Source: Bremerella sp. P1
GTDB taxonomy: Bacteria; Planctomycetota; Planctomycetia; Pirellulales; Pirellulaceae
Direction: 5' to 3'
Assembly (NCBI RefSeq): GCF_028748185.1
Contig: NZ_CP118164.1
Location: 2,976,001-3,040,000 of the forward strand
Length of the DNA: 64,000 bases
The translations under genes were made by a program, and so were the position numbers. Below, one piece after another: positions 4,492-51,477 of the stretch. The notes beneath the pieces were generated by a model. The model had not been told where the DNA came from. It did no database searches and saw only the letters and a program-made list of their open reading frames with translations. Every line of letters begins with the position of its first letter. Within the stretch, counting starts at the first letter, position 1.

Positions 4492-4509
4492 TTCCTCAGA
4501 TGTTGACAA
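4492..4509 (+). promoter_or_regulatory. Operator-like motif copy, start of early operon
   Basis: TTCCTCAGATGTTGACAA, 15 bp before the first early gene and just ahead of its ribosome site AAGGAGG. It is one of about 14 copies of the TTCTCACTASTTGANAA motif in the prophage. No convincing -10 box was placed here, so it may act as a block to transcription rather than lie in a promoter spacer. Confidence 0.55.
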
Positions 4510-4524
4510 CGCAAGGAGGCCCAA

Positions 4525-5592
4525 ATGCAGGTTTCTACAGCTCTCTCCACTCTTGATGCCACGTGCGAATCATTGCAGCTGGATGATCGCACCAAGTTCT
4601 GTATGCGAGGCCAGCTGCGTGCCTACGCCGAACACTGGGATGGCTTCAATCACTTTGGTCGCTACAAGCTGGCCAGTATCAATGGTGTGACAGAAGGTAT
4701 TGAAGTTGAACTGCGTTGCAATCTCAGTGACTCCTGGCGTACCATTAGCTACCTCGACAAACTACTGGTCGATGACTTTGGCAACCTGTGCATCATGGAT
4801 CACAAGATGCTCAGCAAGTGGGACTTCTTCCCCATGTCTACCGACATGCGTGTGCTCCACATGGACCCGCAGATCCGCATGTACCAGATGGTGTGCCACC
4901 TGAATGACTTGCCTGTCACACATCACGTGCATGACATTGCAGTCAATCTCAAGCCATCGCCCAAGGTGGTTGGACCTACCTTCCTAAAGGAGATCGGCGA
5001 GCACTGCACCTATCGCGGCCACAAGATCAGTGAGGAATCACATGACCACGTGATGGGAACTGAGGGTGCCAAGGAAACCGATGAGATGCTGGAGCACACT
5101 GTCTATGCAGCCCTGATGAGCAAGCCAGCGAAGTACTTCGGCCATCCCCGTGTGAACATGAGCAATGATCGCGTGTGTGAGGCGGCACAGCGTCTGGTGC
5201 AGATCACCGAGGAGATTGACAATCGCGTAGAAGAAGACACCCACTGGAAGAACCCCAAGCACTGCAAGGCATTCGGCAAGGAATGTGAATACCTAGCCCT
5301 GTGTGAACACTCAGACGATCCCAGCAGTGCCAACTGGAAGCCACGTGGAGAATCACGTGAAGACTCGGGCAGCCATTCCAATCGCCTCAGTCATTCGCGA
5401 GTGGAGTGCTACCTGGGCTGCCCTAAGAAACACTACTGGCGTTACATCTACAACAGCACAGGGATTGTTCCTGTGGCTCCAGGCGATAGCTACTACACTG
5501 ATCGTGGCACTGCCTGGCATGCGGCCATGGACACCCTTTACCGAGACAACTGTGACTCTGTTGTGGTCACAGCGAATGAGTTGCTTGTTTAA
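4525..5592 (+). CDS. RecB/Cas4-like PD-(D/E)XK nuclease with permuted motif order
   Basis: Probable phage recombination exonuclease. The core motifs are D78 (YLDKLLVDD), D92-H-K94 (IMDHKM) and Q117-Y120 (QIRMYQM), followed by Cys 247, 254 and 260 of an iron-sulphur cluster (CKAFGKECEYLALC). In the RecB/Cas4/AddB family the segment CPxxxxYRY...RGxxxH comes first. Here it appears at the C-terminus instead: LGCPKKHYWRYIY (C299) and RGTAWHAAMD (H332), after which the frame stops. The protein therefore looks circularly permuted, or like a domain tail fused to a truncated second copy. Ribosome site AAGGAGG is 8 bp upstream. First gene of the early operon; followed by a Sak4-like ATPase and an SSB-like gene, a recombination set. 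Confidence 0.8.
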   Translation: MQVSTALSTLDATCESLQLDDRTKFCMRGQLRAYAEHWDGFNHFGRYKLASINGVTEGIEVELRCNLSDSWRTISYLDKLLVDDFGNLCIMDHKMLSKWDFFPMSTDMRVLHMDPQIRMYQMVCHLNDLPVTHHVHDIAVNLKPSPKVVGPTFLKEIGEHCTYRGHKISEESHDHVMGTEGAKETDEMLEHTVYAALMSKPAKYFGHPRVNMSNDRVCEAAQRLVQITEEIDNRVEEDTHWKNPKHCKAFGKECEYLALCEHSDDPSSANWKPRGESREDSGSHSNRLSHSRVECYLGCPKKHYWRYIYNSTGIVPVAPGDSYYTDRGTAWHAAMDTLYRDNCDSVVVTANELLV

Positions 5593-5613
5593 CCTTACTC
5601 ATAAGGAGAATTG

Positions 5614-6447
5614 ATGAGTGATTTAATGGAGAGACTGCGCACGAAGCTGGACAAGGTGCGACCACCTTCGATCCTGCTGACTGGGCAGCCGAAAATCGGC
5701 AAGACTGAGATGGCGTCTTTTGCGCCCAAGCCTGTCTTTGCCTATGACGACAAGGAACTTGGCATCGAAACACTGTCCCAGGCTGGTACTGCGGGCAATG
5801 ATTGTCAGTTCCTGCCTGCTCACACCAAGTGGCAGGATGTGCTGGATGACACCCAGGCCCTGGTCAATGAAGACCATGACCGCAAGACGTTCATCTACGA
5901 CACCATTGGTGGTGCAGCTCGCCTGTGTCGCGAATGGTTCATTGAAACTCACTACGCCCAAGGACGCAGCCTGGACAAAGCGATCCAGCAGTTCAATGGG
6001 TTTGGTGGTATCAATGGCCATCGCGACATGCTGCCCTACTTCATGCAGTGGATCACCATGCTGGATCAGTTGCGTAACAAGGGCGTGATGGTGATCCTGC
6101 TCTCGCATGTGATTCCTGTGAAGGAAAAGAATCCTTCGGGCGAGGACTACATGCAGTGGGAGCCTGATATCCACGGCGTACTGCGTAGCGAACTATTCAA
6201 GTGGGCCGACTGCATGGTCATGGCCGACCACCTGCGCAGCGTGAATGATGATGACATGAAGGTGAAGGGTGATGTCATGCGGGTGCTACGCACCCAGCCT
6301 GGGCCTGGCTACTCGGTCGGTGGTCGCTTCCGTGGCCTGCCCGACATGATCGACATGGGTGCTACTGGGCAGGAAGCTTGGAGCAATTTCTGGAGTGCAT
6401 TGAAGCCACTGATCGTGAAGAAGAAGGAGGTTTCTGATGGTAGCTAA
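5614..6447 (+). CDS. Sak4-like RecA-fold recombination ATPase
   Basis: Probable single-strand-annealing/recombination ATPase of the phage nucleotide-binding (AAA_24/Sak4) type. Walker A GQPKIGKT is at residues 24-31, a Walker B-like strand KTFIYDT near 92, and the family-typical strand GVMVILLSHVIPVKEK about two-thirds along, with KWADCMVM following. Start is ATG 5614 with AAGGAG five bases upstream; a TTG three bases earlier is less likely. It sits between a RecB/Cas4-like nuclease and an SSB-like gene, the usual Sak4 neighbourhood in phages. The next gene overlaps it by 11 bp. Confidence 0.8.
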   Translation: MSDLMERLRTKLDKVRPPSILLTGQPKIGKTEMASFAPKPVFAYDDKELGIETLSQAGTAGNDCQFLPAHTKWQDVLDDTQALVNEDHDRKTFIYDTIGGAARLCREWFIETHYAQGRSLDKAIQQFNGFGGINGHRDMLPYFMQWITMLDQLRNKGVMVILLSHVIPVKEKNPSGEDYMQWEPDIHGVLRSELFKWADCMVMADHLRSVNDDDMKVKGDVMRVLRTQPGPGYSVGGRFRGLPDMIDMGATGQEAWSNFWSALKPLIVKKKEVSDGS

Positions 6448-6685
6448 GTTCTCACTACTTGAGAAGGAGGGTGATCCACCAGCGATGGCTCGGTTCTTTC
6501 TGCGTGAGACAGAACGTACAGTGCAGTTGTGTTTCTACCAGGAGGACGAAGACCCTGAGAGAGATGCGCCATGGTCTGTGCTTGAGATACTGAGATCCAA
6601 TGGCAAGCTGAAGCTGAGCACTGGGTTGCCGAAAGAGTATGTGGCAACTGACAATAAAGGCAAGATCGTATTGGAGAAAGACTAA
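6437..6685 (+). CDS. Small hypothetical early protein
   Basis: 82 residues, acidic and basic patches, no recognised motif (MVAKFSLLEKEGDPP). Ribosome site AGGAGG lies six bases before ATG 6437. It overlaps the Sak4-like gene by 11 bp and shares one base with the SSB-like gene (TAATG), so the three are translationally linked and it is probably part of the recombination set. Its first codons contain a complete copy of the operator-like motif at 6449-6465. Confidence 0.7.
   Translation: MVAKFSLLEKEGDPPAMARFFLRETERTVQLCFYQEDEDPERDAPWSVLEILRSNGKLKLSTGLPKEYVATDNKGKIVLEKD
6449..6465 (+). promoter_or_regulatory. Operator-like motif inside a coding region
   Basis: TTCTCACTACTTGAGAA, the most symmetric copy (arms TTCTCA and TGAGAA around five bases). 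It lies within the first ten codons of the small gene at 6437, with no -35 or -10 partner, the arrangement expected of a transcription-blocking stoperator. Confidence 0.6.
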
Positions 6686-7218
6686 TGCCAAGTAAATTCA
6701 ATCCTGGCACCTATCGTGCCACTGTCAACAGTCGCGTTTTCACCAAGAACAACTTTGGTGATGACGTACTGGAAATTGTCTGCAAGCCTACAGCTCAACT
6801 GTTGGCTGGCGGTATCGAGACACCCATCGAAGGCAATAACCTTGCCTGGGTGCAAATCCCACTGTGGAAAGCAGTGCAAGAGAACGGCAAGTGGGTGACA
6901 AAGGAAGGCACATCGAGTGACTTCTTTGAGCCATCCATGAAGGCTCTGGGTGTGCCTGAGGGGCAGTATGCTTCCGCAGACACTTGCAGTGAATTCGCCA
7001 GCGAGATTGTCATCTACAACAAGCCGAACACCAACGGCGACAAGTCGTATGACAACTGGCGTCTGAGCCTGCCTCGTGGCGAGGGCAAGAAACAGGCAGA
7101 GCCACCTAAGACCGATCCCACGGTCAAGGCCAAGCTGCAAATGGCTCTCGGTGGTAAGCCTGCGGCTGCTCAGCCTGCTACGGCCAGTGCGGCTGCTGAC
7201 GAGGACTGCCCGTTCTAG
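6685..7218 (+). CDS. Single-stranded DNA-binding-like protein
   Basis: 177 residues. The N-terminal part (MPSKFNPGTYRATVNSRVFTK) is a beta-rich stretch like phage SSB/DUF669-type proteins. A long Lys/Ala/Pro linker follows, and the protein ends in an acidic tip DEDCPF, closely resembling the DDxPF tip by which SSB recruits partner proteins. Start ATG 6685 shares a base with the previous stop. Position after a Sak4-like ATPase supports an SSB role in replication and recombination. OB fold itself not provable by eye. Confidence 0.68.
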   Translation: MPSKFNPGTYRATVNSRVFTKNNFGDDVLEIVCKPTAQLLAGGIETPIEGNNLAWVQIPLWKAVQENGKWVTKEGTSSDFFEPSMKALGVPEGQYASADTCSEFASEIVIYNKPNTNGDKSYDNWRLSLPRGEGKKQAEPPKTDPTVKAKLQMALGGKPAAAQPATASAAADEDCPF

Positions 7219-7224
7219 TTTATC

Positions 7225-7247
7225 TTGACGTTCTCACTAGCGACAAA
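7225..7247 (+). promoter_or_regulatory. TTGACG plus operator-like motif
   Basis: TTGACG (7225-7230) is followed directly by TTCTCACTAGCGACAAA (7231-7247), the same layout as at 51434-51456. No good -10 box stands at the right distance, so promoter activity is doubtful while the operator copy is clear. Confidence 0.55.
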
Positions 7248-7294
7248 CGCCTGTCAGTAATGGTGCTGGCAGGTAGATGGTAAGGAGATCATCA

Positions 7295-7573
7295 GTGGCA
7301 AGTAAACGCCCTGACGTACGTGTTACCAGGCACGCTCTGAAACGATTCAAGACACGCGGTGGTGGCACTAGAAGCGACATGCTCAAGAGCCTGCACAAGG
7401 CACGTGAATGTGAGCCATGGCAGATTGAGCGAATCAAGGCAGGTTGCCCTGAATCACATGACGATGGAGCGTTCTTCTGCACTGATCAAGGCTTGATCTA
7501 CGTGTGCAAGAAGGACATGGGGCAAGTGGTTGTGATCACAGTGCTGAAGACAAAAGATTTAGGAGGTGTGTGA
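7295..7573 (+). CDS. Small basic protein, possibly a RelE/DUF4258-like fold
   Basis: 92 residues from GTG 7295, which has AAGGAG seven bases upstream; an ATG at 7277 overlaps that ribosome site and is less likely. The pattern VTRHALKRFKTRG at the N-terminus and GLIYVCKKD...VVVITVLKTK at the C-terminus recalls DUF4258/BECR-fold RNase-like proteins. Several catalytic families share this outline, and no antitoxin partner is visible. Treat as hypothetical. Its stop overlaps the HNH gene start (TGATG). Confidence 0.55.
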   Translation: MASKRPDVRVTRHALKRFKTRGGGTRSDMLKSLHKARECEPWQIERIKAGCPESHDDGAFFCTDQGLIYVCKKDMGQVVVITVLKTKDLGGV

Positions 7574-8055
7574 TGGAGGGGGAATCACGGAAGGTTTGTC
7601 CAATCTGCGGTGTAGACAAGCCCTTTGCGGATTACCACAGGTGCAGCGCTAGGGGCGATGGCGTTCAGTATAAGTGCAAGGAATGCACGAGAGCCAGAGA
7701 CAGGAGTAGGTATTACTCCGACAGGCAGAAGGCGATTGACAGGGTGACCAAGTGGAGGGAGGACAACCCCGACAAGCTTAATAGCTGGAGGAGAAGTGAC
7801 CCTGGAAAGGAGTCAGTGAACTCGGCGTGTCGAAGATACAGGGAGAAGCACCCAGAGAGGGTCAAGGCCAGGGCCGCTGTTGGCGCTGCCATTAAACATG
7901 GAAGATTGGCCAAGCCATCTGAATGTGATGAATGCGGCAGTTCGAGCGAGAAGATCGAAGCGCACCACCACAAGGGTTACACAAGAGAACACTGGCTCGA
8001 TGTGCAGTGGCTGTGCACCCAGTGTCATGGCAAAACCCGCAGAAAGGATTATTAG
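7573..8055 (+). CDS. HNH endonuclease, copy 1
   Basis: 160 residues. An N-terminal zinc ribbon (CPICG...CKEC) is followed by a long Arg/Lys-rich helical linker. The C-terminal HNH motif has CDECG, then HHHKGYTREHWLDVQWLCTQCH, in which the histidines and the two CxxC pairs bind metal. Start ATG 7573 overlaps the previous stop, with AGGAGG just upstream; its TAG overlaps the GTG start of the primase-helicase. Two paralogues with the same layout are at 22888-23394 and 44636-45163. Free-standing homing endonuclease is the likely role. Confidence 0.85.
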   Translation: MEGESRKVCPICGVDKPFADYHRCSARGDGVQYKCKECTRARDRSRYYSDRQKAIDRVTKWREDNPDKLNSWRRSDPGKESVNSACRRYREKHPERVKARAAVGAAIKHGRLAKPSECDECGSSSEKIEAHHHKGYTREHWLDVQWLCTQCHGKTRRKDY

Positions 8056-9890
8056 TGACTGTCGCGCAGCAGCTATTTGATCTCATTGTTTCCAGGGGCA
8101 GGCAGGATGCAATTGCAGCAGAGCCGCTGGGTAGCCACTTCCGCCCAGTGAAATGCAAGCCCGCCATGGAACACTGCGAAAAGCACATTGCAGGGCTGGG
8201 TAGCATTGGGGTGTACTTTCACCTCCCTGGTAACATGTGCCGCATGGTGTGCATTGACGTTGACGCCCATGATGAAAATAACCAGCAACGAATTACAGAG
8301 GCTAAGGAGGAGTGCAGTGGGCTGTCAGGTGCATTAGATGACCTGGAGATTGAGCATGTAGTGGAAACCAGCCAGTCAGGCCAGGGGCACCACTTGTGGG
8401 TTTTTTTCGATTCAGAGTTGCCCTGCAAGACTGCACGCAATTTTGCTAGGTATGTTTTGCAACAGGCTAACGTATCCCATGCTGAGATTTACCCACGCAG
8501 CGACACGCTAGACGCTGAGCAGGTAGGCTCATTGGTGCGATTGCCCTTCTGGAATAAAAGCACCTGCGATCTCTCTCAGGCTGTGCCTGTAGAAGCCTCT
8601 GAGATCGCTCAGATCGCCTCCCAGTACAAGGAGGATTCAGTAGTCCAAGTCAGCGAGAACGTCGTTCTACAGCCCTCTCAGGGCTCCCTGAGCGACTATA
8701 CGCTGAAGATGCTGGAGGAAGATGGATCGTATATCCATTCACGGTGGAATGGAGCCACGGATGGCCTTAGCGACAAGTCAGGATCGGCAGTCGCCCTCAG
8801 CTTGGCAGATGCGCTCGTAAGAGCCTATGTGCCCACTGAGGAAATCAGGATGGCGGTAAGGATGCTGTGCGAGAGGCAGGGAAAGCCTCGCAGGGACGCA
8901 TGGATCAATGGTACTGTGGCGAAAGCGTATGGATACGCACGAGGTACTTCAGATGAAGTGACCATGAGTGCTACGGATCTGAAAAGCCTGGCAAAGGAAT
9001 GTGTGCCAGGGCTCCTGGATGGCACCAGGATGCACTATGGGCTAGGGATACCCACCCTGAATGCTTGTATCGACGGACTCGCACCCAAGCAGTTAGGGTT
9101 TATTTGTGCAAGGCCAGGGAATGGCAAAACTGCGCTAGGATGGCAGGCGTGCATCGAGAACGCAGGGGAAGGAACCCCTGCTCTCTTTGTATCGTGTGAG
9201 ATGACACGAGAGGAATTGGTAGGGCGTGCAGTGCAGTACCTCACTGGGCTGGATGTGGATCAGTTCCATGACAACCCCGAGAAGGTCATGCAGGCTGCGG
9301 CCAAGATGAATGATCGCGTGTACATTCGTGAGTGCAAGCCACGCCTGAAGAATGTGATCGATGTGATCAAGAATCACGTGATTACCAAGGGCGTCAGGTT
9401 TGTGGTGGTGGATTACATCCAGCTCATTCGCTCGCATGATCGTGCCAGTAAGCTGGAAAGCATCGAGGCATCCTGCGAGGAGTTCAAAGACCTGTGCAAG
9501 ATGCTCGACATTGCCATCCTGTGTTTGGCTCAACTCAGTCGCAGTGCTGACGCTTCTCGCCTGGAAGTGCCCAAGGGTGGACAGGTTGACCTGAATCGCT
9601 TCATGCCCACCTACGCCGATATCAAGGGTGGTGGTGCCATTGAGGAGTCAGCCGACCTGGTGATCACCCAGGTGCTGCCTGAGAAGCACCCTCTGCTTCA
9701 GCACCACACTCGCAAGGGCTCTTTGCTGGTCAACTGCCTGAAGCGACGTGGTGGCCCTGTGAGAGGCGACTGGCCGATGGATCTGTGGTTCGACATGAGC
9801 CAGCAAAAGATCAAGAGCTGGGATGAACACGCCTTCAATGCGCCTGACTCGGGTGTGCAGTTCTCTGCCTCGTTTGATGATTTCTGTTGA
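8055..9890 (+). CDS. AEP primase fused to DnaB-type helicase
   Basis: 611 residues from GTG 8055 (AAAGGA six bases upstream). The N-terminal region looks like an archaeo-eukaryotic primase: D-x-D in CIDVDAHD (near 66), SGQGHHLWVFF (near 110) and YPRSDTLDAEQVGSLVRLPF. A middle helical part resembles a PriCT-type domain. The C-terminal helicase has Walker A ARPGNGKTA (near 353), Walker B VVVDYIQLI (near 450) and the QLSRSAD sensor, as in DnaB. So one chain should prime and unwind phage DNA at the fork. The order is like T7 gp4, but the primase class differs from the TOPRIM type. Confidence 0.85.
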   Translation: MTVAQQLFDLIVSRGRQDAIAAEPLGSHFRPVKCKPAMEHCEKHIAGLGSIGVYFHLPGNMCRMVCIDVDAHDENNQQRITEAKEECSGLSGALDDLEIEHVVETSQSGQGHHLWVFFDSELPCKTARNFARYVLQQANVSHAEIYPRSDTLDAEQVGSLVRLPFWNKSTCDLSQAVPVEASEIAQIASQYKEDSVVQVSENVVLQPSQGSLSDYTLKMLEEDGSYIHSRWNGATDGLSDKSGSAVALSLADALVRAYVPTEEIRMAVRMLCERQGKPRRDAWINGTVAKAYGYARGTSDEVTMSATDLKSLAKECVPGLLDGTRMHYGLGIPTLNACIDGLAPKQLGFICARPGNGKTALGWQACIENAGEGTPALFVSCEMTREELVGRAVQYLTGLDVDQFHDNPEKVMQAAAKMNDRVYIRECKPRLKNVIDVIKNHVITKGVRFVVVDYIQLIRSHDRASKLESIEASCEEFKDLCKMLDIAILCLAQLSRSADASRLEVPKGGQVDLNRFMPTYADIKGGGAIEESADLVITQVLPEKHPLLQHHTRKGSLLVNCLKRRGGPVRGDWPMDLWFDMSQQKIKSWDEHAFNAPDSGVQFSASFDDFC

Positions 9891-9896
9891 TTCGTA

Positions 9897-9925
9897 TTGA
9901 CATTCCCACAAGTGAGGAATAAAAC
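9897..9925 (+). promoter_or_regulatory. Promoter with operator filling the spacer
   Basis: TTGACA (9897-9902), then a 17-bp spacer that is itself the motif TTCCCACAAGTGAGGAA (9903-9919), then TAAAAC (9920-9925). The -35 box is perfect and the -10 box weak. It probably drives the small-gene block from 9966. A repressor bound here would mask both boxes. Confidence 0.6.
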
Positions 9926-9937
9926 TTCCTCATCGCG

Positions 9938-9954
9938 TTCACACTAGTTACTAA
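9938..9954 (+). promoter_or_regulatory. Operator-like motif downstream of the 9897 promoter
   Basis: TTCACACTAGTTACTAA, a second copy at about +6 to +22 of the predicted transcript, overlapping the start of the ribosome site of the gene at 9966. The pair of sites suggests cooperative repression. Confidence 0.5.
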
Positions 9955-9965
9955 AGGAGCTTCTT

Positions 9966-10610
9966 ATGTGCCATGTCGAGATCCTGGATGCCAGCCCTGT
10001 GCAAGAACCCGAGAAAGAGATGGTGTGGCCGCAGTTGCGACTGTGCGAAGGCTTTAGGCGAGTGTTCTTCACTGAGGAGGTCGCACTCACTGATGTTGGC
10101 GTGCAGCTTGCTGGTGCTGGGCGAATCTCGCGTGTTGATAGCTTCTGCTACTCCACCCCACCCGCCAACACCCAGTGGCAGATCAGGATCACAGCAGAGG
10201 ATGGCAGTGAGTACCCACGGGTGGAGAAGATTGACCTTGGTGGAGGTGACAATGCGACTTGGCTGCGACTGAACGGCAATGACAATGGCAGCGTCTTGAT
10301 CGCCTGCGATCCTGGATACGGCCCCTTTGGGATTGGCGAGATGTCAGAGCATGGCCTTATGGATAGCTATCCTCTCCCCAAAGGCACTATCACCACGATC
10401 ACCGTGAGTGAAGGCAAGGTCAGTGCTGAGATCGAGGAGCCTAAGCCAGCGTTTCCGTATCGCTTGAAGAATGGTGCTGTCTTGGTGAAGCACCCATGCA
10501 ACTACCAGATATTTACTTCCTCAGGCGAAAAGGGTGGCGAAGCTGGTTTTGTCACCCTGGATGACCTCAAGCAGGCAGTTGCCTACATCAAGGAACACGC
10601 CAATGACTGA
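9966..10610 (+). CDS. Hypothetical phage protein
   Basis: 214 residues, no recognised family. Mixed beta-rich sequence with Gly-Asp-Asn patches (LGGGDNATWLRLNGNDNG), and no signal peptide or membrane segment. Ribosome site AAGGAG six bases before ATG 9966. First gene after the promoter at 9897, and it overlaps the next gene by eight bases. A genuine gene by codon pattern and spacing; role unknown. Confidence 0.7.
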   Translation: MCHVEILDASPVQEPEKEMVWPQLRLCEGFRRVFFTEEVALTDVGVQLAGAGRISRVDSFCYSTPPANTQWQIRITAEDGSEYPRVEKIDLGGGDNATWLRLNGNDNGSVLIACDPGYGPFGIGEMSEHGLMDSYPLPKGTITTITVSEGKVSAEIEEPKPAFPYRLKNGAVLVKHPCNYQIFTSSGEKGGEAGFVTLDDLKQAVAYIKEHAND

Positions 10611-10989
10611 TTCTACCCAGAGCACACACAGCTCTCTGGGGCAGTGGCAGTGCCCTCAGTGCCAGGCACCCTTGCTGCCGACACCCAGTGGCTCTGTGTG
10701 CTCCAAGGGCTGTGGCAAGCTCCTGGTCAAGATGAGCAATAAGGCTGCACGCAGGGCCATTGCCATCTTGTCTCTGGGGCTGAAGGATGCCTGCCAGGTA
10801 GCGGGTGGCTGGATCATAGATGGTGATCAGAGTGTGATCTACCAGAAGGACAAAGAGGCCAGCAAAAAGACTGAGGGTCGCAAGGTGGACAGTCTGCCCA
10901 AGTGGCTGGAGGAAGATCAGGTGCTGGCACTGGATGGGCATAAGGTGATTGTACTCAAGGTGGGTTCAAGTATCGCTCACAGGTTTTAA
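10603..10989 (+). CDS. Zinc-ribbon protein, hypothetical
   Basis: 128 residues from ATG 10603, which overlaps the end of the previous gene. The N-terminal segment WQCPQCQAPLLPTP...VCSKGC has two Cys pairs of a small zinc ribbon. The remainder is a mixed alpha/beta region (QVLALDGHKVIVLKVGSS) with no recognised family. Likely nucleic-acid or protein binding, as for the other small Cys-rich products of this operon. Confidence 0.65.
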   Translation: MTDSTQSTHSSLGQWQCPQCQAPLLPTPSGSVCSKGCGKLLVKMSNKAARRAIAILSLGLKDACQVAGGWIIDGDQSVIYQKDKEASKKTEGRKVDSLPKWLEEDQVLALDGHKVIVLKVGSSIAHRF

Positions 10990-11001
10990 GGAGCCACAAC
11001 C

Positions 11002-11779: not shown

Positions 11780-11830
11780 GTGATGTGCTACATCCAAAGA
11801 ATGATCGAGCAGGCAAAAAGGGAGTATCCC

Positions 11831-12994: not shown

Positions 12995-13057
12995 GCCGCG
13001 AGCATCCCATGGCAGAAGTGTACGCAAGTTCGATATTAGTCACACAGGGAGTTAGCG

Positions 13058-13966: not shown

Positions 13967-13974
13967 ACAAATAA

Positions 13975-14004: not shown

Positions 14005-14020
14005 GTCCAACCAGTCTAAG

Positions 14021-42666: not shown

Positions 42667-42680
42667 TGGCTATCCCCTGT

Positions 42681-45329: not shown

Positions 45330-45650
45330 CGGGTTCTAACTCCGAAAAAAGGAAGAAGTGGAAGATTGCCTGAGCTGGCCAGGCTCAGGCGCCTGCGCAA
45401 AGAAGGCGTCAGTGGAGGGTGACTGACGCTCGCGCGCGTGAAGTGTAAGGGAGAGGTCCCATTTCCAGCAGAGTGGCCATCAAACCGCAGCGCTACAGCA
45501 GGACGGATAGATGCCAGCGGGTATCCTCAGGTACCACGCCATGACCGAAAGATGCACTTCATCGAGAGGTGTCAGTCATGGGCTTATCTTGCCCCACTCA
45601 ACCTTCACCTGTCCCGAGTTTGTGGGACCGCATGAAGGCTGGCGGGAAAG
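45330..45650 (-). promoter_or_regulatory. Late-operon leader with two strong hairpins
   Basis: No gene seen. In the transcript between the tRNA and the first late gene, two GC-rich stems form. One is GCGTCAGT/ACTGACGC (45406-45413 with 45422-45429), eight perfect pairs. The other is CCTGAGC/GCTCAGG (45369-45375 with 45383-45389) around a CTGGCCAG core. They could attenuate or protect the late mRNA after the tRNA is cut out. Role inferred. Confidence 0.5.
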
Positions 45651-45727
45651 GGCCACGCCTGGGAATCGAACCCAGCACCTCCTGCTCTCAAGAAGCAGGT
45701 GATCCACCACTATGATCTTGCGCGACC
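45651..45727 (-). tRNA. Unusual phage tRNA, expanded anticodon arm
   Basis: Transcript 77 nt. Eight-pair acceptor GGTCGCGC/GCGTGGCC; D stem GATC/GATC with loop ATAGTGGTG; normal T arm CTGGG-TTCGATT-CCCAG; variable loop AGGTG. The anticodon arm is 19 nt instead of 17: stem CCTGC/GCAGG with a nine-base loop TTCTTGAGA, or six pairs with loop TCTTGAG. The anticodon cannot be fixed. The centred reading is TTG (Gln) with C instead of T at position 33; shifted readings give CTT (Lys), TGA (Ser) or TCT (Arg). No CCA encoded. First element of the late transcript. Confidence 0.7.
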
Positions 45728-45739
45728 TGTGTTGTCACA

Positions 45740-45792
45740 TTGACAACTAGTGAGAACTGCACGAATTGTACACTATGATCTTTTCCTGTCAA
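45740..45792 (-). promoter_or_regulatory. Late leftward promoter with operator at the start site
   Basis: Read leftward: TTGACA (45792-45787), 16-bp spacer, TACAAT (45770-45765), then the motif TTCTCACTAGTTGTCAA at 45756-45740, covering about +1 to +17. A strong sigma70-like promoter that a bound repressor would block. It drives the tRNA and all packaging and structural genes. Confidence 0.78.
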
Positions 45793-45821
45793 TCACCCTA
45801 TCGGGTGGAAAGGTGATAAAA

Positions 45822-46412
45822 TCACTCAGATTTCCCAAAGTTTTCCAAATCTTTTAGGGCTTCAGCGTGGCTGGGGTCTTCTGGAGGCTCCTCGTCACCC
45901 TTTTTCTCGCCCTTGTCTCGGAAGCCATCCACCTTCTGCACACGATCCAAAAGGTCTACCCAGCCGCCCTTGACGGTGAGCATGTTCTCGACCATGCCAA
46001 TGGCCAGCAGGCTGGGAGCTTTGCGATCACGTGCCAGTTTTGCCAGGGGCAGGGACGACCAGTCGATCTTATGCAGTGGTGCTTCACCCTTGGGGTAGTC
46101 GCTCATCTCGTCGCCTGTGAGCTTGCGTGCCACTAGGGTGAAGACTCGCAGTGCCCATATGGCGTTCACAGCGAATGTCTCGTCATTGCGTGCGTTAGAG
46201 ATTACCTCGATGCGTGCTTCCAAGTCAGATCGCTTCTGCTTCGCTTCCTGCTCCTCTGCACGCACTTGGGCCTGTTCACTCATAAGATCCTCTTGGTGCT
46301 TTCTGCGTGGCTCTGATGGCCTGTGACGAGACTTCCATGGGGTTCTGTGGAAGGTTGGCTTTTTGCTGCGGATAGTAGGTGGCGCACGTCGCTTCCAGGG
46401 TTTGCGTGGCAT
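45822..46412 (-). CDS. Hypothetical protein with basic N-terminus
   Basis: 196 residues from ATG 46412 (MPRKPWKRRAPPT), two bases after the previous stop; an in-frame ATG at 46283 (MSEQAQVRAEEQ) has a better ribosome site AGAGGA and gives 153. The first 43 residues are Arg/Pro/Lys-rich. The rest is a helical domain with coiled-coil start and a compact middle (SLPLAKLARDRKAPSLLAIG). Last gene before the late promoter. Not recognised. Confidence 0.6.
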   Translation of the reverse strand: MPRKPWKRRAPPTIRSKKPTFHRTPWKSRHRPSEPRRKHQEDLMSEQAQVRAEEQEAKQKRSDLEARIEVISNARNDETFAVNAIWALRVFTLVARKLTGDEMSDYPKGEAPLHKIDWSSLPLAKLARDRKAPSLLAIGMVENMLTVKGGWVDLLDRVQKVDGFRDKGEKKGDEEPPEDPSHAEALKDLENFGKSE

Positions 46413-46413
46413 T

Positions 46414-46680
46414 CTAACCGTCCCTGGTGCCATGGCACTTTGGAAAGCCAACGCAGCCATAGAAGTGACTACCAGTCTTGCTGTTCAGTCGCTTGACGGT
46501 CTCCTTCTTGCATCGTGGGCACGGCCCAGGGCCTCGTGGCTTGCGGCGGCCACCACCAGAGAACACCCACATCTCAGTCATCCCATCCTCCCAGTTGTCT
46601 GGGTCATCGTAGAATCCACCAAGAGTGGCCTCATCCCAATCCATCATCTCACCGAGAGCATAGTCTGCCATGTCACCCAT
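46414..46680 (-). CDS. Topoisomerase-type zinc-finger protein
   Basis: 88 residues. Acidic first half (MMDWDEATLGGFYDDPDNWE), then a C-terminal zf-C4 topoisomerase finger: CPRCKKETVKRLNSKTGSHF, YGC and FPKCHGT. This finger binds single-stranded DNA in bacterial topoisomerase I. Standalone phage version; role unknown. Confidence 0.68.
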   Translation of the reverse strand: MGDMADYALGEMMDWDEATLGGFYDDPDNWEDGMTEMWVFSGGGRRKPRGPGPCPRCKKETVKRLNSKTGSHFYGCVGFPKCHGTRDG

Positions 46681-46688
46681 CAGTCATC

Positions 46689-46919
46689 CTACTCCTCGTC
46701 AACCTCTGTGTCGCCCAGTGCGTCAAACTCTTCCACGTCCAGGTCCAATGTGACCATCTCTGGCTCCAGGAAGTAGTTCACCAGCTCATCTTCCACGTAG
46801 AAGAGAGCTTTGTCTCGCCCATGGGCATCAGTCTTGATCACAAACCTCTCGGCTATCACCTGGAATGGGATGATATTCTTCGGTAGCACCGAGTAGATGT
46901 TGAGCTTGCTGGCATCCAT
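46689..46919 (-). CDS. Small acidic hypothetical protein
   Basis: 76 residues (MDASKLNIYSVLPKNIIPF), with a strongly acidic C-terminus (LDLDVEEFDALGDTEVDEE). No recognised motif. Part of the leftward small-gene block. Confidence 0.6.
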   Translation of the reverse strand: MDASKLNIYSVLPKNIIPFQVIAERFVIKTDAHGRDKALFYVEDELVNYFLEPEMVTLDLDVEEFDALGDTEVDEE

Positions 46920-46927
46920 GGCTGTGC

Positions 46928-47035
46928 CTACCTCTGTGATTTACGCTGGATTCTCTTGCCAGTCTCAAGGCCTGACATAAATGCAATGAATGTGGACGCC
47001 AACAAGAAGATGGTGAATGTGCTCCAGTGGATCAC
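46928..47035 (-). CDS. 35-residue membrane peptide
   Basis: GTG 47035, with GGAGG seven bases upstream, to TAG 46928. Sequence reads MIHWSTFTIFLLASTFIAF with one membrane span and a basic tail GKRIQRKSQR. Overlaps the previous stop (TTGTGA). Small toxic or lysis peptide possible. Confidence 0.5.
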   Translation of the reverse strand: MIHWSTFTIFLLASTFIAFMSGLETGKRIQRKSQR

Positions 47036-47325
47036 AATTCCCCTCCAAGATAGTGCAGGCAAGCCTCTCGCCTGGCCTCATTGGCATTCTCAATAATCAC
47101 ATTGCCTTCGATTTCACACACGTCGTAGCCCATGTCTTCAAGCTGATTGCCTGAGAGGATCAGCAGCTGGTAGAGTTTCTTATGACTCTCTACCACATCA
47201 CCCCACTTGTAGTAGCTGTCAGAGCCATCTGGGCTCACGTAGGCAATTGCGCCGAAGGGGCGTTTCGCCTGTAAGACCTGCAACAAGTCAGCCTCTGTCA
47301 GGCTGTAGAGTTCCTTCTCAGTCAT
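47032..47325 (-). CDS. Hypothetical protein
   Basis: 97 residues from ATG 47325, preceded by AAGGAAATCAC; the longer frame from 47376 lies within the previous gene. Sequence MTEKELYSLTEADLLQVL with a helix-strand pattern and a Glu-rich end (CEIEGNVIIENANEARREAC). No family recognised. Confidence 0.62.
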   Translation of the reverse strand: MTEKELYSLTEADLLQVLQAKRPFGAIAYVSPDGSDSYYKWGDVVESHKKLYQLLILSGNQLEDMGYDVCEIEGNVIIENANEARREACLHYLGGEL

Positions 47326-47477
47326 GTGATTTCCTTCCAGGAATAAACCGTGTAGCCATCGGGAAGTCCTTCCCATGCACGCCCATTAAAGAACACTCTA
47401 CGCAGTTCCTCGCTGTAGCCAGATTCCATCTTGGGATCACAGATCCAGGCGTTGTACCAGCCAGCTTCTTCAGGCAT
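47322..47477 (-). CDS. 51-residue hypothetical protein
   Basis: ATG 47477 (GAGGAG upstream, TCACATG context) to TGA 47322, sharing bases with the next start. Aromatic-rich (EEAGWYNAWICDPKMESGYS, then FFNGRAWEGLPDGYTVYSW), resembling a small WW or beta-hairpin fold. Not recognised. Confidence 0.55.
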   Translation of the reverse strand: MPEEAGWYNAWICDPKMESGYSEELRRVFFNGRAWEGLPDGYTVYSWKEIT

Positions 47478-47481
47478 GTGA

Positions 47482-48132
47482 CTACTCCTCGATGTACTCG
47501 GTGCTGACCGTGTAGATGATGCCCGTGATTGGAGTGCCATCAGGCTTGGTCAAGATGGCACTCTTGGACTGTAAGCCCTTGATCACAGCGTCTCGCTCCT
47601 TCACCTTCTCGCTCAACCCCTCGATGCTCTTGCCCATCTTGCTGATAGACATGCCCAGGTGAGCACAGCGATCTTGGTAGTAGCGACGATCTGTGTATTC
47701 TTTGTTGAGCTTTTCACGCAGAGAATCACATTCCTCGTGCTTCTTCTGAATGACCGTGTTCAGCTCTGTCATCTGGTCGGAATACTCTTCCAGGTTCTGG
47801 CGTGCCTCATTAAGCTCCATCAGGGCCGCAGCGAGATCACCATCCATTAGAGTTGTGCGGTGCTCCAGATGCTTCTTATCGGCCTCCAGAGCTGCGATAC
47901 GAGCCTGATCCTTTTCCCACAGCTCGTCGTAGTCACCCTGGCAACCATCCAGGCAACTACTTAGATGATCCTTCACGTTCTCCAGGCCACTGATTCGCTT
48001 GTACGACTCAGCCAATTCCAGCCGCAGATCCACCAGTGTGGCCGATTGCTGCTGCCTGCCGACAATACTGCCGACCCATAGACAGATGGCTATAGCCACC
48101 AAGGTAAACAGTACTGTGATTCCAAAATCCAT
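47482..48132 (-). CDS. Membrane-anchored coiled-coil protein
   Basis: 216 residues. An N-terminal membrane span (VLFTLVAIAICLWVGSIVG) is followed by some 160 residues of coiled coil (ALMELNEARQNLEEYSDQM) and a short C-terminal tail. AGGAGG upstream of ATG 48132. Topology is like i-spanins or phage exclusion proteins. It is the first gene after an operator-like site at 48147. Confidence 0.62.
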   Translation of the reverse strand: MDFGITVLFTLVAIAICLWVGSIVGRQQQSATLVDLRLELAESYKRISGLENVKDHLSSCLDGCQGDYDELWEKDQARIAALEADKKHLEHRTTLMDGDLAAALMELNEARQNLEEYSDQMTELNTVIQKKHEECDSLREKLNKEYTDRRYYQDRCAHLGMSISKMGKSIEGLSEKVKERDAVIKGLQSKSAILTKPDGTPITGIIYTVSTEYIEE

Positions 48133-48146
48133 CTCTAACCCTCCTG

Positions 48147-48163
48147 TTTGTAACTAGTGAGAA
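48147..48163 (-). promoter_or_regulatory. Operator-like motif before the coiled-coil gene
   Basis: Leftward TTCTCACTAGTTACAAA, 15 bp before the start codon at 48132. A GATAAT box lies just upstream, but no matching -35 was found. Confidence 0.5.
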
Positions 48164-48166
48164 ACA

Positions 48167-49027
48167 TTATCCACAAAGACCGTAGGCTGACTGACAGGCA
48201 GGCGGTTCCTCTAACACCTCCAAGTCAGTCTCCTTACCTCCCCTGGCAGTCATTGGCCACTCAACCACCTCGTCAATCCAGTTGATATCCTTGCCTGGGA
48301 CTTTAGGCTTAAAGAATGGCAGCCCAGTCTTCTTCTCCCACTCACGCACCTTGTCGATCATCTCAGGGAAGCGGCGCGCCCAGTTGCGCACATCAGCCTT
48401 CTTTGAGTTGACGCAAGGTGCGCACCCAACCCGCTCAAAGCCGAGCGTATAAAGTTCATTCACTCGCTCGTTGTAGGCGGCCACATAGGCAAAGCACATC
48501 TCCTTTGTCCAGTCGATGATTGGATGACGTAGTGTCACACCAAAGAACTCATCCTCACACTCGTGCGGTCGCTTCGCACGCTTGCTGCTCTCATCCCATC
48601 GCACGCCTGCATAACGCACGAACTCCAGCCCCTTGTCGATAATGTTCTCACGAATCCAGCGCTGCTGCGGGTAGAGCTTCAAGTGCTCTGTGCAGAACTG
48701 AATCCTGCTGGATGGAAAGAAGCCCTTGATGTTGGCCAGGACATCAAATGTGAGCTTGTCATCAGGATTCAGGGCAAGCTCCTTGATTCGCTGCTGCACT
48801 GACGGGCGACGAGTCCCCATGTCACACACCAGTGGAGTGACCTCATGCACATGGTGCACATTCTCGCTGTACCAATGAATAAACTCGGTGGTGAGTGGGT
48901 GCTCATTGCCACCAGCATCGCTATTGAGAAGGATCACATCCTCTGCTGGGTAGCGATTGAGGAGCCACCTTGACGCAGCCTGTGAATCAATCCCACCAGA
49001 AAACCCAAGTATGTGCTTTGTGGCCAC
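48167..49027 (-). CDS. PAPS-reductase-family PP-loop protein
   Basis: 286 residues from GTG 49027 (GAGGAG upstream). The PP-loop SGGIDS lies near residue 10, followed by the AANDYL-like AED motif VILLNSDAGG. Later come RIQFCTEHLKLYPQQRW (conserved Cys of the PAPS/APS reductase family) and ERVGCAPCVNSKK. A Cys-rich end ACQSAYGLCG is seen. Such genes are common in phages, but their substrate is unsettled: sulphur mobilisation, nucleotide or tRNA thiolation, or DNA modification. No dnd-type neighbours here. Sits among uncharacterised small genes. Confidence 0.82.
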   Translation of the reverse strand: MATKHILGFSGGIDSQAASRWLLNRYPAEDVILLNSDAGGNEHPLTTEFIHWYSENVHHVHEVTPLVCDMGTRRPSVQQRIKELALNPDDKLTFDVLANIKGFFPSSRIQFCTEHLKLYPQQRWIRENIIDKGLEFVRYAGVRWDESSKRAKRPHECEDEFFGVTLRHPIIDWTKEMCFAYVAAYNERVNELYTLGFERVGCAPCVNSKKADVRNWARRFPEMIDKVREWEKKTGLPFFKPKVPGKDINWIDEVVEWPMTARGGKETDLEVLEEPPACQSAYGLCG

Positions 49028-49030
49028 TAA

Positions 49031-49405
49031 TCACTCCTCACTAGTTGATAACGACAAATTAAATAAAGAACTGCGATCAGCACTTGGCAGCAGTTCCCTG
49101 TCCCTCACCTCAGGATCATAATCAGTGCGTGTGATCTTGACCTGTCTTCCAGAGACAAGCCACATACCATCTTCACGCTTCACTAGAATCACATGGCCTC
49201 GGGTGGCTTTCACATGGCTCCACATGCACCAGGCAGATACCCTGTAATCACAGGAAGGTGGGTGCCAATTCCAAGAGATGCACTGCTGCATGATCTCTCT
49301 GCCGTAGGAGTCACAGTAGGTATTGATCTCCAGGAGATCACACTGTGCTGTGTGATGAGAATCACATGGACAAGAGGAGAACAGCAGTGCGGTCAGAAGG
49401 AGCAT
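49031..49405 (-). CDS. Exported small protein, lipoprotein-like
   Basis: 124 residues from ATG 49405 (the TAA of the upstream gene overlaps the AATCACATG context). N-terminus MLLLTALLFSSCPCDSHH is a signal peptide with a Cys at a lipobox-like place (LFSSC). The body is Cys/Trp/His-rich (YCDSYGREIMQQCISWNWHP). A surface or periplasmic product, perhaps superinfection exclusion. An operator-like motif TCCTCACTAGTTGATAA (49035-49051) overlaps its 3' end. Confidence 0.58.
   Translation of the reverse strand: MLLLTALLFSSCPCDSHHTAQCDLLEINTYCDSYGREIMQQCISWNWHPPSCDYRVSAWCMWSHVKATRGHVILVKREDGMWLVSGRQVKITRTDYDPEVRDRELLPSADRSSLFNLSLSTSEE
49035..49051 (+). promoter_or_regulatory. Operator-like motif within a gene end
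   Basis: TCCTCACTAGTTGATAA overlaps the 3' end of the exported-protein gene, 8 bp before the start of the PAPS-reductase-family gene. No promoter boxes around it. Confidence 0.5.
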
Positions 49406-49409
49406 GTGA

Positions 49410-49562
49410 TTATTCCCCAATCAGTGCGACCATCTTCCAGAGATTTCCTGTGATGCGCGCAGTCAACAGGTTGATCTGACTGGCCAACTCCTCACGACTA
49501 AGATCGGAGCTTGCCTTTGTTTCATCTGGCTTAGTGCCGCGCAGTAGTCCTTCAAAGTCCAT
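49410..49562 (-). CDS. 50-residue helical protein
   Basis: ATG 49562 (in AATCACATG context) to TAA 49410. Sequence MDFEGLLRGTKPDETKASSD, then a helix (LSREELASQINLLTARITGN). No recognised motif. The next gene's start follows the stop within five bases. Confidence 0.55.
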   Translation of the reverse strand: MDFEGLLRGTKPDETKASSDLSREELASQINLLTARITGNLWKMVALIGE

Positions 49563-49570
49563 GTGATTAC

Positions 49571-49813
49571 CTACGCCTCAAATTTGCCAGTTTCTGCATA
49601 GTGCTTGAGAATGCTGGCCAGTTCGCCTGCACGCTCCTGGTCTAGGGCAACGCTGGATTCCTCTGGTTCAACTGTAAAGCAGAGATGGTCAACACCATTG
49701 TACTTCACTGCCTCTACGGTCAACGTGTCACTCCATTCATCACAGCAGTGTAAGACCACTTGGCGAAGCGGCTTTAGGCACTCACCCTTGTACTCAAGCT
49801 CAATACCTTCCAT
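49571..49813 (-). CDS. Hypothetical protein
   Basis: 80 residues from ATG 49813, preceded by GGAGG eight bases upstream; an in-frame ATG at 49852 would begin almost at the predicted transcript start. Sequence MEGIELEYKGECLKPLRQVV with a mixed fold (AVKYNGVDHLCFTVEPEES). First gene after the promoter at 49856. No family recognised. Confidence 0.6.
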   Translation of the reverse strand: MEGIELEYKGECLKPLRQVVLHCCDEWSDTLTVEAVKYNGVDHLCFTVEPEESSVALDQERAGELASILKHYAETGKFEA

Positions 49814-49855
49814 CACAACCCTCCAAAAACAAAACAAACAAACCCAACGCATGTG

Positions 49856-49884
49856 ATTCTATTCCTCACTACTTGAGAACACAA
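49856..49884 (-). promoter_or_regulatory. Leftward promoter with operator in the spacer
   Basis: Read leftward: TTGTGT (49884-49879), 17-bp spacer holding the motif (TCTCAAGTAGTGAGGAA), TAGAAT (49861-49856). Same architecture as at 9897 and 50856. It drives the small-gene block from 49813 down. Confidence 0.65.
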
Positions 49885-50027
49885 GCAGAAATAAAAAGAA
49901 ATCGCATTTGCCTCAGTCTCACCTCCACACTACTCACAATCACAGAGCATGTGATCACCAACAACACACAATAATCACATGGTGTGAGGTGGAGTGAGAA
50001 TGGCTTCATGGGAGTGTCGAAGAACAT
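49869..50027 (-). CDS. 52-residue hydrophobic protein
   Basis: ATG 50027 (upstream GGGAG and TAA of the previous gene in GAGTAATCACATG) to TAG 49869. Sequence has a Cys/Val-rich membrane-like stretch (CDYCVLLVITCSVIVSSVEV). Its stop lies inside the operator-like site. Small phage peptide, unrecognised. Confidence 0.45.
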   Translation of the reverse strand: MFFDTPMKPFSLHLTPCDYCVLLVITCSVIVSSVEVRLRQMRFLFISACVLK

Positions 50028-50031
50028 GTGA

Positions 50032-50253
50032 TTACTCCCTGGTGAGCTTTAGCCACACCTGCTCATTAGCTTTGGCTAGTGCTAGATTGCTCGGTGTGGA
50101 TACGCAGAGCATCTTTTGAGGAAGGCTTGTTGCTCGTAGAGCAGCGTTTAAGCAGTTATCAATAGCACCCCCTGGTGGATCATCAGCAAACTCACTAAAG
50201 GCATTAACCCACAAGGCCATCGACTTAAGACTTACACCAGACAACTCTTTCAT
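50032..50253 (-). CDS. 73-residue hypothetical protein
   Basis: ATG 50253 (GGTAATCACATG; the TAA is the upstream stop). Sequence MKELSGVSLKSMALWVNAFS, helical, ending QVWLKLTRE. A longer frame from 50319 contains the same ATG and is unlikely. No family recognised. Confidence 0.58.
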   Translation of the reverse strand: MKELSGVSLKSMALWVNAFSEFADDPPGGAIDNCLNAALRATSLPQKMLCVSTPSNLALAKANEQVWLKLTRE

Positions 50254-50257
50254 GTGA

Positions 50258-50341
50258 TTACCTGCCATCAACAAAAGACCATACTGTGGCCACAAAGCAA
50301 AGAAAGCACAAAGAGCCAAATGACACAGCTAAATAAAACAT
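50258..50341 (-). CDS. 27-residue membrane peptide
   Basis: ATG 50341 (GGGAGTGATCACATG) to TAA 50258. Sequence MFYLAVSFGSLCFLCFVATV, one hydrophobic segment. First in the leftward small-gene block and translated in the chained style of its neighbours. Confidence 0.45.
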   Translation of the reverse strand: MFYLAVSFGSLCFLCFVATVWSFVDGR

Positions 50342-50855
50342 GTGATCACTCCCTTTCACTTGGGTAGGTACATACCAGCACCATCAGTCCTTGGCGCAGA
50401 ACTCAAAATAAAAAAGCCGTAGGTGGCTAACCTGCCTTCTTGCATCCCCAGGGCATCCACCAAGGGGTGGGAGCAGTGTTGATAACGCGCAGTAGCTGGT
50501 GAGACATACTGCACTCACACACACGTCCTGGGAGACTCCCAGATCGCACTGCTGGACTTGGACTGCTCTCTGCTCAACTTACTTCATCACGACCGTGAGA
50601 CATGCTCACAGAGGCTCAGAAGGGATCACAGGGCATAGCCATATCTGACGTGATCCACCTGGCGACAAATGGATCGAGTGTCTGACCAGCTCAAAGGCTC
50701 ATCCTCTAGACACAGTGCTCAAACGCGAATGAAGGCGCTTCCCTAGTGAAATTTGTTACCCGCGCTCACAAGGCGGTGCGTGTGGGCTTGTGGCCCTTAT
50801 GGCAGGTACGCATGTGCCAGAGGTCGCAAACAGAGCGACTATCGCATAACCACTG
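50342..50855 (-). ncRNA. Long leader or non-coding RNA from the strong leftward promoter
   Basis: About 510 nt with no convincing gene. It holds several perfect inverted repeats: CTGGGAG-a-CTCCCAG (50528-50542) and GTGAG/CTCAC (50593-50607). A weak leftward terminator-like AGCC...GGCT plus T run lies at 50409-50428. It could be an untranslated leader or a regulatory RNA transcribed in the lysogen. Evidence is structure only. Confidence 0.45.
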
Positions 50856-50883
50856 ATTATACTCACTACTGGGAATCTGTCAA
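50856..50883 (-). promoter_or_regulatory. Perfect-consensus leftward promoter with operator in the spacer
   Basis: Leftward TTGACA (50883-50878), 16-bp spacer, TATAAT (50861-50856). The spacer carries an operator-like copy (top strand TACTCACTACTGGGAA, 50860-50875). A second copy lies just upstream at 50896-50911. The strongest-looking promoter in the window. Confidence 0.82.
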
Positions 50884-50895
50884 GAGCAAAAATGG

Positions 50896-50911
50896 TGCCG
50901 AGTAGTGAGAA
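50896..50911 (-). promoter_or_regulatory. Operator-like motif upstream of the leftward promoter
   Basis: Leftward TTCTCACTACTCGGCA, about 13 bp upstream of the -35 box of the 50856 promoter. Placed to allow cooperative binding with the spacer site. Confidence 0.55.
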
Positions 50912-51264
50912 TCACCAAAATAATTCAACTATTTCTGGTCGTATTGGGATCACGTGAATCCCCAGTGTCGCGGTAACTGTGTTATCAAATTGACAGCTTT
51001 GTATACCCTTGGTGGGTGGTAAGTCGTTGTGGGGTGGGGAGATGAGTGTTTGTCTAGGTGGGGGTACTAGTAGTATATCGTGACGGGCGCGGGGCGGGGG
51101 TCGATTCCAAAATTCCGCCTGGCCAGCCTGAAATTGCTGAAGAGTGTCTTTTTGAAATCCCTTATACGGCAAGGGTTTGCGTCACCCTCAGTTGTGGCTA
51201 GTCTCAATAGGGAGCTGACACGGTACTCTGATTCGGTCGCACGATTTTGGGGTGTTTTTAGGAT
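50912..51264. other. Regulatory gap, no gene seen
   Basis: No frame with ribosome site or codon pattern was found. GT-rich, contains TTGACA at 50990-50995 with no good -10 and several G runs (GGGGCGGGGG near 51091). Could hold an origin of replication; no iterons were identified by eye. Confidence 0.4.
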
Positions 51265-51303
51265 GTGTATCATTTTGATACACTAGACCGATCGGTCTAT
51301 ACT
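51265..51303 (+). promoter_or_regulatory. Rightward promoter with TetR-type palindrome in the spacer
   Basis: GTGTATCA-TTT-TGATACAC (51265-51283, perfect 8-bp arms) is joined directly to TAGACCGATCGGTCTA (51284-51299, a perfect 16-bp palindrome). TTGATA (51275-51280), 17-bp spacer and TATACT (51298-51303) make a good sigma70-like promoter around it. The palindrome has the TAGACC-N4-GGTCTA form of NemR/TetR-family operators. No TetR gene was seen in the window. It drives the right arm. Confidence 0.7.
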
Positions 51304-51423
51304 TAGTGTGCTAACGACATTACCCACCACTTCCACCCCTTCCACCATGTCTCACAACCCACGTGTCCACCTTCACCGTTCATTCCCACACACCACAGCA
51401 AGCCCAGCAATTCCAGTTCATTT

Positions 51424-51477
51424 TCTCACTACTTGACATTCTCAGTATTGACAAACGACCACAGTGTCGATAACTTG
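51424..51477 (+). promoter_or_regulatory. Rightward promoter with two abutting operators
   Basis: TTCTCACTACTTGACAT (51424-51440) runs into TTCTCAGTATTGACAAA (51440-51456). TTGACA (51449-51454), 17-bp spacer, TAACTT (51472-51477) form the promoter. An ACGCCC-GCTA-GGGCGT hairpin (51526-51541) lies in the leader before ArdA. Confidence 0.7.

Follow-up and report, generated by a model that had tools for sequence, protein, structure and literature searches.

The integrated element

We analyzed a 64,000-nucleotide (nt) window, positions 2,976,001 to 3,040,000 of the single-contig 6.96-Mb genome of Bremerella sp. P1; positions below are numbered within this window, as they were in an earlier note on the same DNA. 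The window holds an integrated phage element across which a 17-bp motif is dispersed. The motif set is operator-like and specific to the element, and it is probably the repressor regulon of the phage. The genome has 142 matches to PF07596, which we take to be a family typical of planctomycetes, versus none in 14 control genomes; the earlier assignment to a planctomycete host is supported by this count.

The 3' part of a tRNA-Arg gene (the sole match in an Rfam scan) is repeated at the far end of the element, and a tyrosine integrase gene adjoins the tRNA gene (Table 1). From these features we place the integrated element at 2802 to 54176 (~51.4 kb, or 0.7% of the genome); about 7% of it is non-coding. 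PHROG-type matches identify an early rightward block with an exonuclease, a Sak4-like annealing protein, a weak SSB match, and a primase-helicase. The late leftward block has matches to portal (E 8e-5), terminase (E 3e-10), and head (E 5e-8) proteins. It is followed by a leftward block of small genes at 45.8 to 50.3 kb, a 1.3-kb region (50.3 to 51.6 kb) in which no convincing gene was recognized, and, last, a rightward block that encodes ArdA and a serine recombinase.

The motif and its confinement to the element

The motif set is real and confined to the element. Matches to the pattern of the earlier note, at ≤3 mismatches, numbered 10 in the window versus 0.71 in shuffled sequence; nine of the 10 were at places that the note had listed, and the tenth was at 39387. 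At ≤2 mismatches, the pattern TYCTCACTASTTGANAA matched 8 times in the whole genome, 7 times inside the element and once outside; the reversed pattern, used as a control, had 8 matches genome-wide. Because TYCTCACTASTTGANAA was drawn from the element's own sites, the inside count is favored, but the outside count is not. The comparison of element, host, and shuffled DNA that the earlier note had proposed gave a motif that is enriched in the element and nearly absent from the host.

We scored individual sites with a matrix built from eight seed sites, using 412 kb of host DNA as the null. (An iterative matrix drifted to 39 loose sites and was replaced by this fixed one.) The seed sites scored 19.8 to 25.0, and the best host position scored 18.2; the eight sites built the matrix, so their own scores are favored, but the host null is independent. 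At the scores of the next five sites (12179, 51439, 49924, 50895, and 50860), 0.25 to 0.75 chance matches are expected in the element, and the expectation is 0.87 for 39387 (rank 14), 1.25 for 9902, and 1.37 for 4493. We regard eight sites as certain, about five as probable, and two as possible. Motif-like sequence is present at all 14 places listed in the earlier note; eight of these are strong, and two, 9902 and 4493, are within chance on score. Some of the listed starts were one base off (the best matrix positions are 4493, 9902, 12179, 50895, 51423, and 51439), and the site listed at 12178 has an extra base in its left half.

When non-coding and junction DNA was searched without supervision, with a commoner motif, AATCACATG, masked, the 17-bp motif ranked first, at 19.2 bits versus 14.7 to 15.7 bits in 12 shuffles; the search started from every second word of the real data and from every sixth word of the shuffles (single-base, per segment). 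The site is partly symmetric, with 45 of 90 dyad positions paired versus a mean of 24 under random column pairing (P = 0.03). Orientation relative to local transcription was mixed: 10 of 15 sites run with it and 5 against, and the eight strong sites divide 6 to 2. This 15-site set omits 39387, which is inside a late gene, and keeps the lower-ranked 9902 and 4493, which the earlier note had named. Because of this choice the P values for 15 sites are flattering, and those for the eight strong sites are safer.

Table 1. Motif sites, promoter-like sequences, and related features of the element (window positions)
Feature	Position	Strand	Remarks
tRNA-Arg(TCG)	2774-2847	+	Left end of element (attL)
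Tyrosine integrase	2956-4005	-	Hand-chosen start; open reading frame (ORF) 2956-4083: PF00589 E 4.5e-26, PHROG integrase
Promoter-like TTGACC-17-TAAATT	3805-3833	+	Upstream of the helix-turn-helix (HTH)-like gene; 4th best promoter-like score of element
Small HTH-like protein, candidate repressor	4004-4402	+	132 aa; weak PHROG matches, E 0.033 and 0.12
Weak terminator-like hairpin	4409-4426		Behind HTH-like gene
Weak motif site	4493-4509	+	Rank 16, within chance on score; 5' of exonuclease gene
Strong motif site	6449-6465	+	Rank 1; gene junction
Strong motif site	7231-7247	+	Rank 8; intergenic
Promoter-like TTGACA-17-TAAAAC	9897-9925	+	Spacer filled by weak-scoring site 9902-9918 (-), rank 15
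Strong motif site	9938-9954	+	Rank 7; downstream of promoter-like 9897
Probable motif site	12179-12195	+	Rank 9; overlaps spacer and -10 of weak TTGCCA-18-GAAAAT (12167-12196)
Strong motif site	45740-45756	-	Rank 4; predicted start of late leftward TTGACA-16-TACAAT (45792-45765, -)
Strong motif site	48147-48163	-	Rank 2; in 34-nt intergenic gap
Strong motif site	49035-49051	+	Rank 3; gene junction, against transcription
Strong motif site	49863-49879	+	Rank 5; spacer of promoter-like TTGTGT-17-TAGAAT (49884, -)
Probable motif site	49924-49940	+	Rank 11; absent from the earlier list
Probable motif site	50860-50876	+	Rank 13; spacer of TTGACA-16-TATAAT (50883-50856, -), overlaps -10 by two bases
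Probable motif site	50895-50911	-	Rank 12; just upstream of promoter 50883; 35 bp center-to-center from 50860
Strong motif site	51423-51439	+	Rank 6; upstream of TTGACA-17-TAACTT (51448, +) ahead of ardA
Probable motif site	51439-51455	+	Rank 10; 16 bp from 51423 site, covers -35 of 51448
attR	starts 54130		Repeat of tRNA-Arg 3' part (from 2802)

Placement relative to genes and promoters

The sites are mostly outside genes: 6 of the 8 strong sites (P = 3e-6) and 12 of the partly selected 15 (P = 6e-12), as counted on a hand-made gene map of 63 entries, of which 7 were marked as having wrong ends. (The unsupervised search, the promoter-score comparison, and the placement of AATCACATG used a partly corrected map of 62 entries that retained one flagged start, 10606.) The 13 best-ranked sites are all outside the late structural block at 14 to 45 kb, and the 14th, 39387, is within it.

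We ranked promoter-like sequences over the element by sigma70 hexamer score. The six top scores are those of 50883 (-), which is the best, 45792 (-), 51275 (+), 3805 (+), 9897 (+), and 51448 (+). A motif site is present at four of the six, in the spacer at 50883 and 9897, at the predicted start at 45792, and over the -35 box at 51448; 49884 (-) is a further promoter-like sequence with a filled spacer. The spacer sites 9902, 49863, and 50860 have a common orientation to transcription, and their register to the -10 box is alike within 3 bp. The earlier note had put the motif between the -35 and -10 boxes at 9897, 49856, and 50856, which is correct within two bases, and had put site 45740 over the start of the late promoter, where we also find a strong site. 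Directly behind this promoter and its site, ARAGORN called a tRNA-Gln (45650 to 45726, -); Rfam was below threshold there.

Non-coding DNA is the preferred location of both sites and promoters, so random non-coding positions served as the control. The mean promoter score near the sites was higher than at these positions for the 15 sites (P = 0.001) and, marginally, for the eight strong sites (P = 0.04). Promoter scores of at least 9.3 were found at 5 of the 15 sites (P = 0.004).

Two observations concern the promoters themselves. The perfect-consensus promoter 50883 is followed by ~600 nt (50254 to 50850, -) without a convincing gene, and this leader shows no unusual degree of structure (z = -1.1 and -0.4). 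The spacer of the promoter-like TTGATA-17-TATACT at 51275 to 51303 (+) is within a perfect palindrome, TAGACCGATCGGTCTA, the sole exact copy in the genome, and the inverted repeat GTGTATCA-TTT-TGATACAC adjoins it. This arrangement resembles an operator for a second, TetR-like regulator.

A second motif

The strongest outlier 8-mer of the element was AATCACAT, with 34 occurrences versus 1.9 expected under a second-order model. AATCACATG is statistically stronger than the operator-like motif and precedes it in the unsupervised search. The element has 23 of its 50 genomic copies, with a cluster at 49187 to 50340. Eight of the 23 end in a start codon, 12 are inside genes (8 of them on the opposite strand), and 3 are non-coding. 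Start-associated sequences are described for cluster K mycobacteriophages in PMC3203893; AATCACATG is positioned alike at some genes, but about two-thirds of its copies are elsewhere.

A candidate repressor regulon

Because a phage-specific site fills promoter spacers and covers a start, an operator is the simplest reading, and we consider it likely that a single DNA-binding regulator encoded by the phage, most probably its lysogeny repressor, uses the sites as operators. In the lysogen, the bound regulator would shut off leftward transcription from 50883 (the main leftward promoter), 49884, and 45792 (the late promoter) and rightward transcription from 9897 and 51448 (ahead of ardA). It would do so by filling the spacer (9897, 49884, and 50883), occupying the start (45792), or covering the -35 box (51448). 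Binding could be cooperative at the pairs 9902/9938 and 50860/50895, with centers 35 to 36 bp apart, and at 51423/51439 (16 bp). The promoter-poor sites 4493, 6449, 7231, 48147, 49035, and 49924 may control promoters that were not recognized or may stop read-through.

The repressor may be the small HTH-like protein encoded at 4004 to 4402, the sequence of which, read by eye, has the appearance of an XRE-type HTH. Promoter 3805 is 170 to 200 bp upstream of its gene, and none of the 34 best matrix matches is near it; being free of sites, this promoter would stay on. A site-free promoter and a hairpin behind the gene are features that a lysogenic repressor gene would need, and we name the protein, as a guess, as the candidate (unproven) binder of the sites. 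As placed by hand, the ATG codons of the integrase gene (-) and the HTH-like gene (+) overlap at 4003 to 4006, so that the promoter of either gene would be located within the other.

Several points weigh against this interpretation. By matrix score alone, 39387, 9902, and 4493 are not above chance, and of the three spacer sites, 9902 and 50860 are outside the eight strong ones. The earlier note had picked part of the 15-site set for nearby promoters, and only 2 of the eight strong sites have a promoter score of at least 9.3, which is not significant (P = 0.12). A separate promoter scan gave no excess of promoter-like sequences over shuffles (3 versus 6.9 in 2800 to 14200 and 11 versus 8.4 in 44000 to 54300), and promoters in planctomycetes may depart from the sigma70 consensus. 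The HTH-like protein has no match in Pfam or NCBIfam, a weak best match in PDB (Aca3, E 1.3), and a low-confidence structure model of helices only (mean predicted local distance difference test score, 46.9). Finally, the collections searched yielded no close relative of the phage.

Search for relatives

The collections searched may omit records close to the present genome. No relative of the HTH-like protein, the primase-helicase, the head protein, or the terminase was found among viral contigs, and none of the head protein was found among genome contigs. In 198 genomes of the class, the HTH-like protein (E 0.001) matched only its own copy, and the terminase (E 1e-10) matched its own copy and three partial sequences at 25 to 28% identity; in 199 genomes of the family, the primase-helicase (E 1e-20) matched only its own copy. 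In a phage collection, the terminase matched 110 records and the primase-helicase 696, all at <60% identity; among the best 20 of the 110 and the best 20 of the 696, identity was ≤30.0%. The HTH-like protein had no match in the phage collection, and the control region had none among plasmids. The motif pattern occurred in 19 stretches of viral contigs, with one exact match each; within the DNA scored, a second matrix match of at least 14 was present in 2 of the 19, and no sister system was seen among them.

Alternative explanations

It is possible, but in our view doubtful, that the sites are true stoperators, at which, where there is no promoter, the repressor would additionally stop RNA polymerase during elongation, as proposed for L5. 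Such sites would keep the repressor transcript made from 3805 out of the replication genes (4525 onward). The HTH-like gene precedes the early operon and has the same direction, with only the weak hairpin between them; if promoter 3805 is active in the lysogen, transcription continuing into the replication genes must be restricted, which argues for a road-block at 4493, 6449, and 7231. This role is an argument, not a result. In the direction of the genes, the six promoter-poor sites of the 15 have no promoter-like sequence above the 95th percentile of the background, and they are in gaps of 34 to 179 nt or at gene junctions, broadly as described for L5 in PMC9283540. Yet the orientation of the sites is not tied to transcription, and 6449 and 7231 have moderate promoter scores (8.4 and 8.7) when both strands are searched. 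The earlier description of 12178 as being without promoter boxes is doubtful, as a weak promoter-like sequence overlaps the site.

We give a rather low probability to a combined scheme in which one repressor fills spacers and also blocks transcribing polymerase at junctions, the arrangement having evolved independently beside AATCACATG as a second element-wide code. In this scheme, a temperate planctomycete phage without close relatives in the searched collections would be silenced genome-wide through a partly symmetric site in both orientations, and the second code, AATCACATG, is often positioned at gene starts.

Binding of an activator, or of another phage protein of lytic growth, in place of a repressor is improbable. 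The sites are element-specific and promoter-associated, and 50895 and 51423 are upstream of -35 boxes, where activators can bind, but the spacer sites (9902, 49863, and 50860) and the start site (45740) fit repression better, and two of the promoters concerned (50883 and 45792) are near consensus. Promoters of a phage polymerase should run with transcription, and 5 of the 15 sites run against it; no single-subunit RNA polymerase was matched among the scanned proteins, which were part of the element's ORFs and included the three largest.

We regard as very unlikely an RNA-level element that works in mRNA just before the ribosome-binding site, in a manner that somewhat recalls the start-associated sequences of cluster K mycobacteriophages. 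A GGAG-type stretch directly follows five same-strand sites (4493, 6449, 9938, 12179, and 48147), but short intergenic gaps force this nearness, a promoter does not transcribe sites that are in its spacer or upstream of its -35 box, and 5 of the 15 sites are in the other orientation. Use of host regulator sites by phages is known, and borrowing of the sites of a regulator such as LexA hardly deserves more credit: a host LexA regulon has sites at many host genes, whereas we found 1 match outside the element in 6.9 Mb (≤2 mismatches), below the 8 of the reversed-pattern control. Chance or a coding artifact, the least credible explanation, could account for 4493, 9902, and 39387 on score, but for the strong sites as a set it is refuted by the shuffle count, the genome-wide count, and the host score null, and non-coding placement and the unsupervised search also speak against it.

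Comparison with known phage systems

According to PMC9283540, L5-type sites are 13 bp long and asymmetric, follow transcription in their orientation, and occur in promoter regions and short intergenic spaces; L5 has more than twenty, and its repressor has 183 residues and two DNA-binding domains. The two-domain repressor of TipsytheTRex, an L5-related cluster A phage, is described there as binding as a monomer. Our set resembles these in its many sites, rare in the host, in promoter regions and short intergenic spaces. The resemblance to L5 stoperators seen in the earlier note holds to the extent that the sites are many, dispersed, and element-specific, but not for the 13-bp asymmetry or the orientation rule; the sites here are 17 bp, partly symmetric, and in both orientations. 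The set is also smaller (eight strong and about five probable sites), as is the candidate protein (132 aa). We would not class it among the L5-type stoperator systems, although its mode of action may be similar.

The C1 operators of phage P1 are a closer precedent than the L5 stoperators. PMC8546580 describes 22 dispersed 17-bp operators for one repressor, the site being asymmetric. One dispersed 17-bp site type at several promoters is also what we find, but the consensus differs, the site here is partly symmetric, and this element is integrated at tRNA-Arg, whereas P1 DNA is described as replicating autonomously in the lysogen. The SPBRE repeats of SP-beta were likewise recognized first in silico, in intergenic regions of the prophage, and were shown 24 years later to be sites of the MrpR repressor, which has a tyrosine-recombinase fold without recombinase function (PMC10516654). 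In both cases, an element is repeated in the intergenic regions of one prophage; the SPBRE motif is 15 bp long versus 17 bp here. In our element, the only tyrosine-recombinase family match among the scanned proteins was the integrase (2956 to 4083). Phage phiC31 has conserved inverted repeats of about 17 bp in intergenic regions that are bound by the phage repressor, and differs in host and sequence. By analogy, our set would work most like P1 C1 and SPBRE, as a dispersed operator regulon, a type of system already known but here present in a new phage and phylum.

The earlier note knew of no planctomycete phage with such a motif. Consistent with this, we found no such operator set among the titles and abstract beginnings surveyed on planctomycete phage regulation, and no paper with the phrase "planctomycete phage." To our knowledge, no published study addresses how a planctomycete phage controls lysogeny. 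With a defined operator set, the repressor can be tested directly; the set also offers promoters to map in this phylum and bears on the convergent evolution of dispersed operators; it is also a possible source of a repressible promoter for planctomycete genetics.

Other features of the element

The leftward block of small genes includes a PAPS reductase-like gene (48167 to 49024, -; PHROG 424, E 6.8e-45). Besides the tyrosine integrase, the element has a serine recombinase at its opposite end (52697 to 53434, +). Several six-base palindromes are depleted in the element relative to a second-order model: CTGCAG (2 versus 33), GTGCAC (2 versus 25), AGGCCT (3 versus 26), and ATCGAT (3 versus 24). 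They are also depleted relative to the host rate, by which 15, 7, 14, and 38, respectively, would be expected. Together with the element-borne ArdA, this depletion suggests pressure from restriction enzymes.

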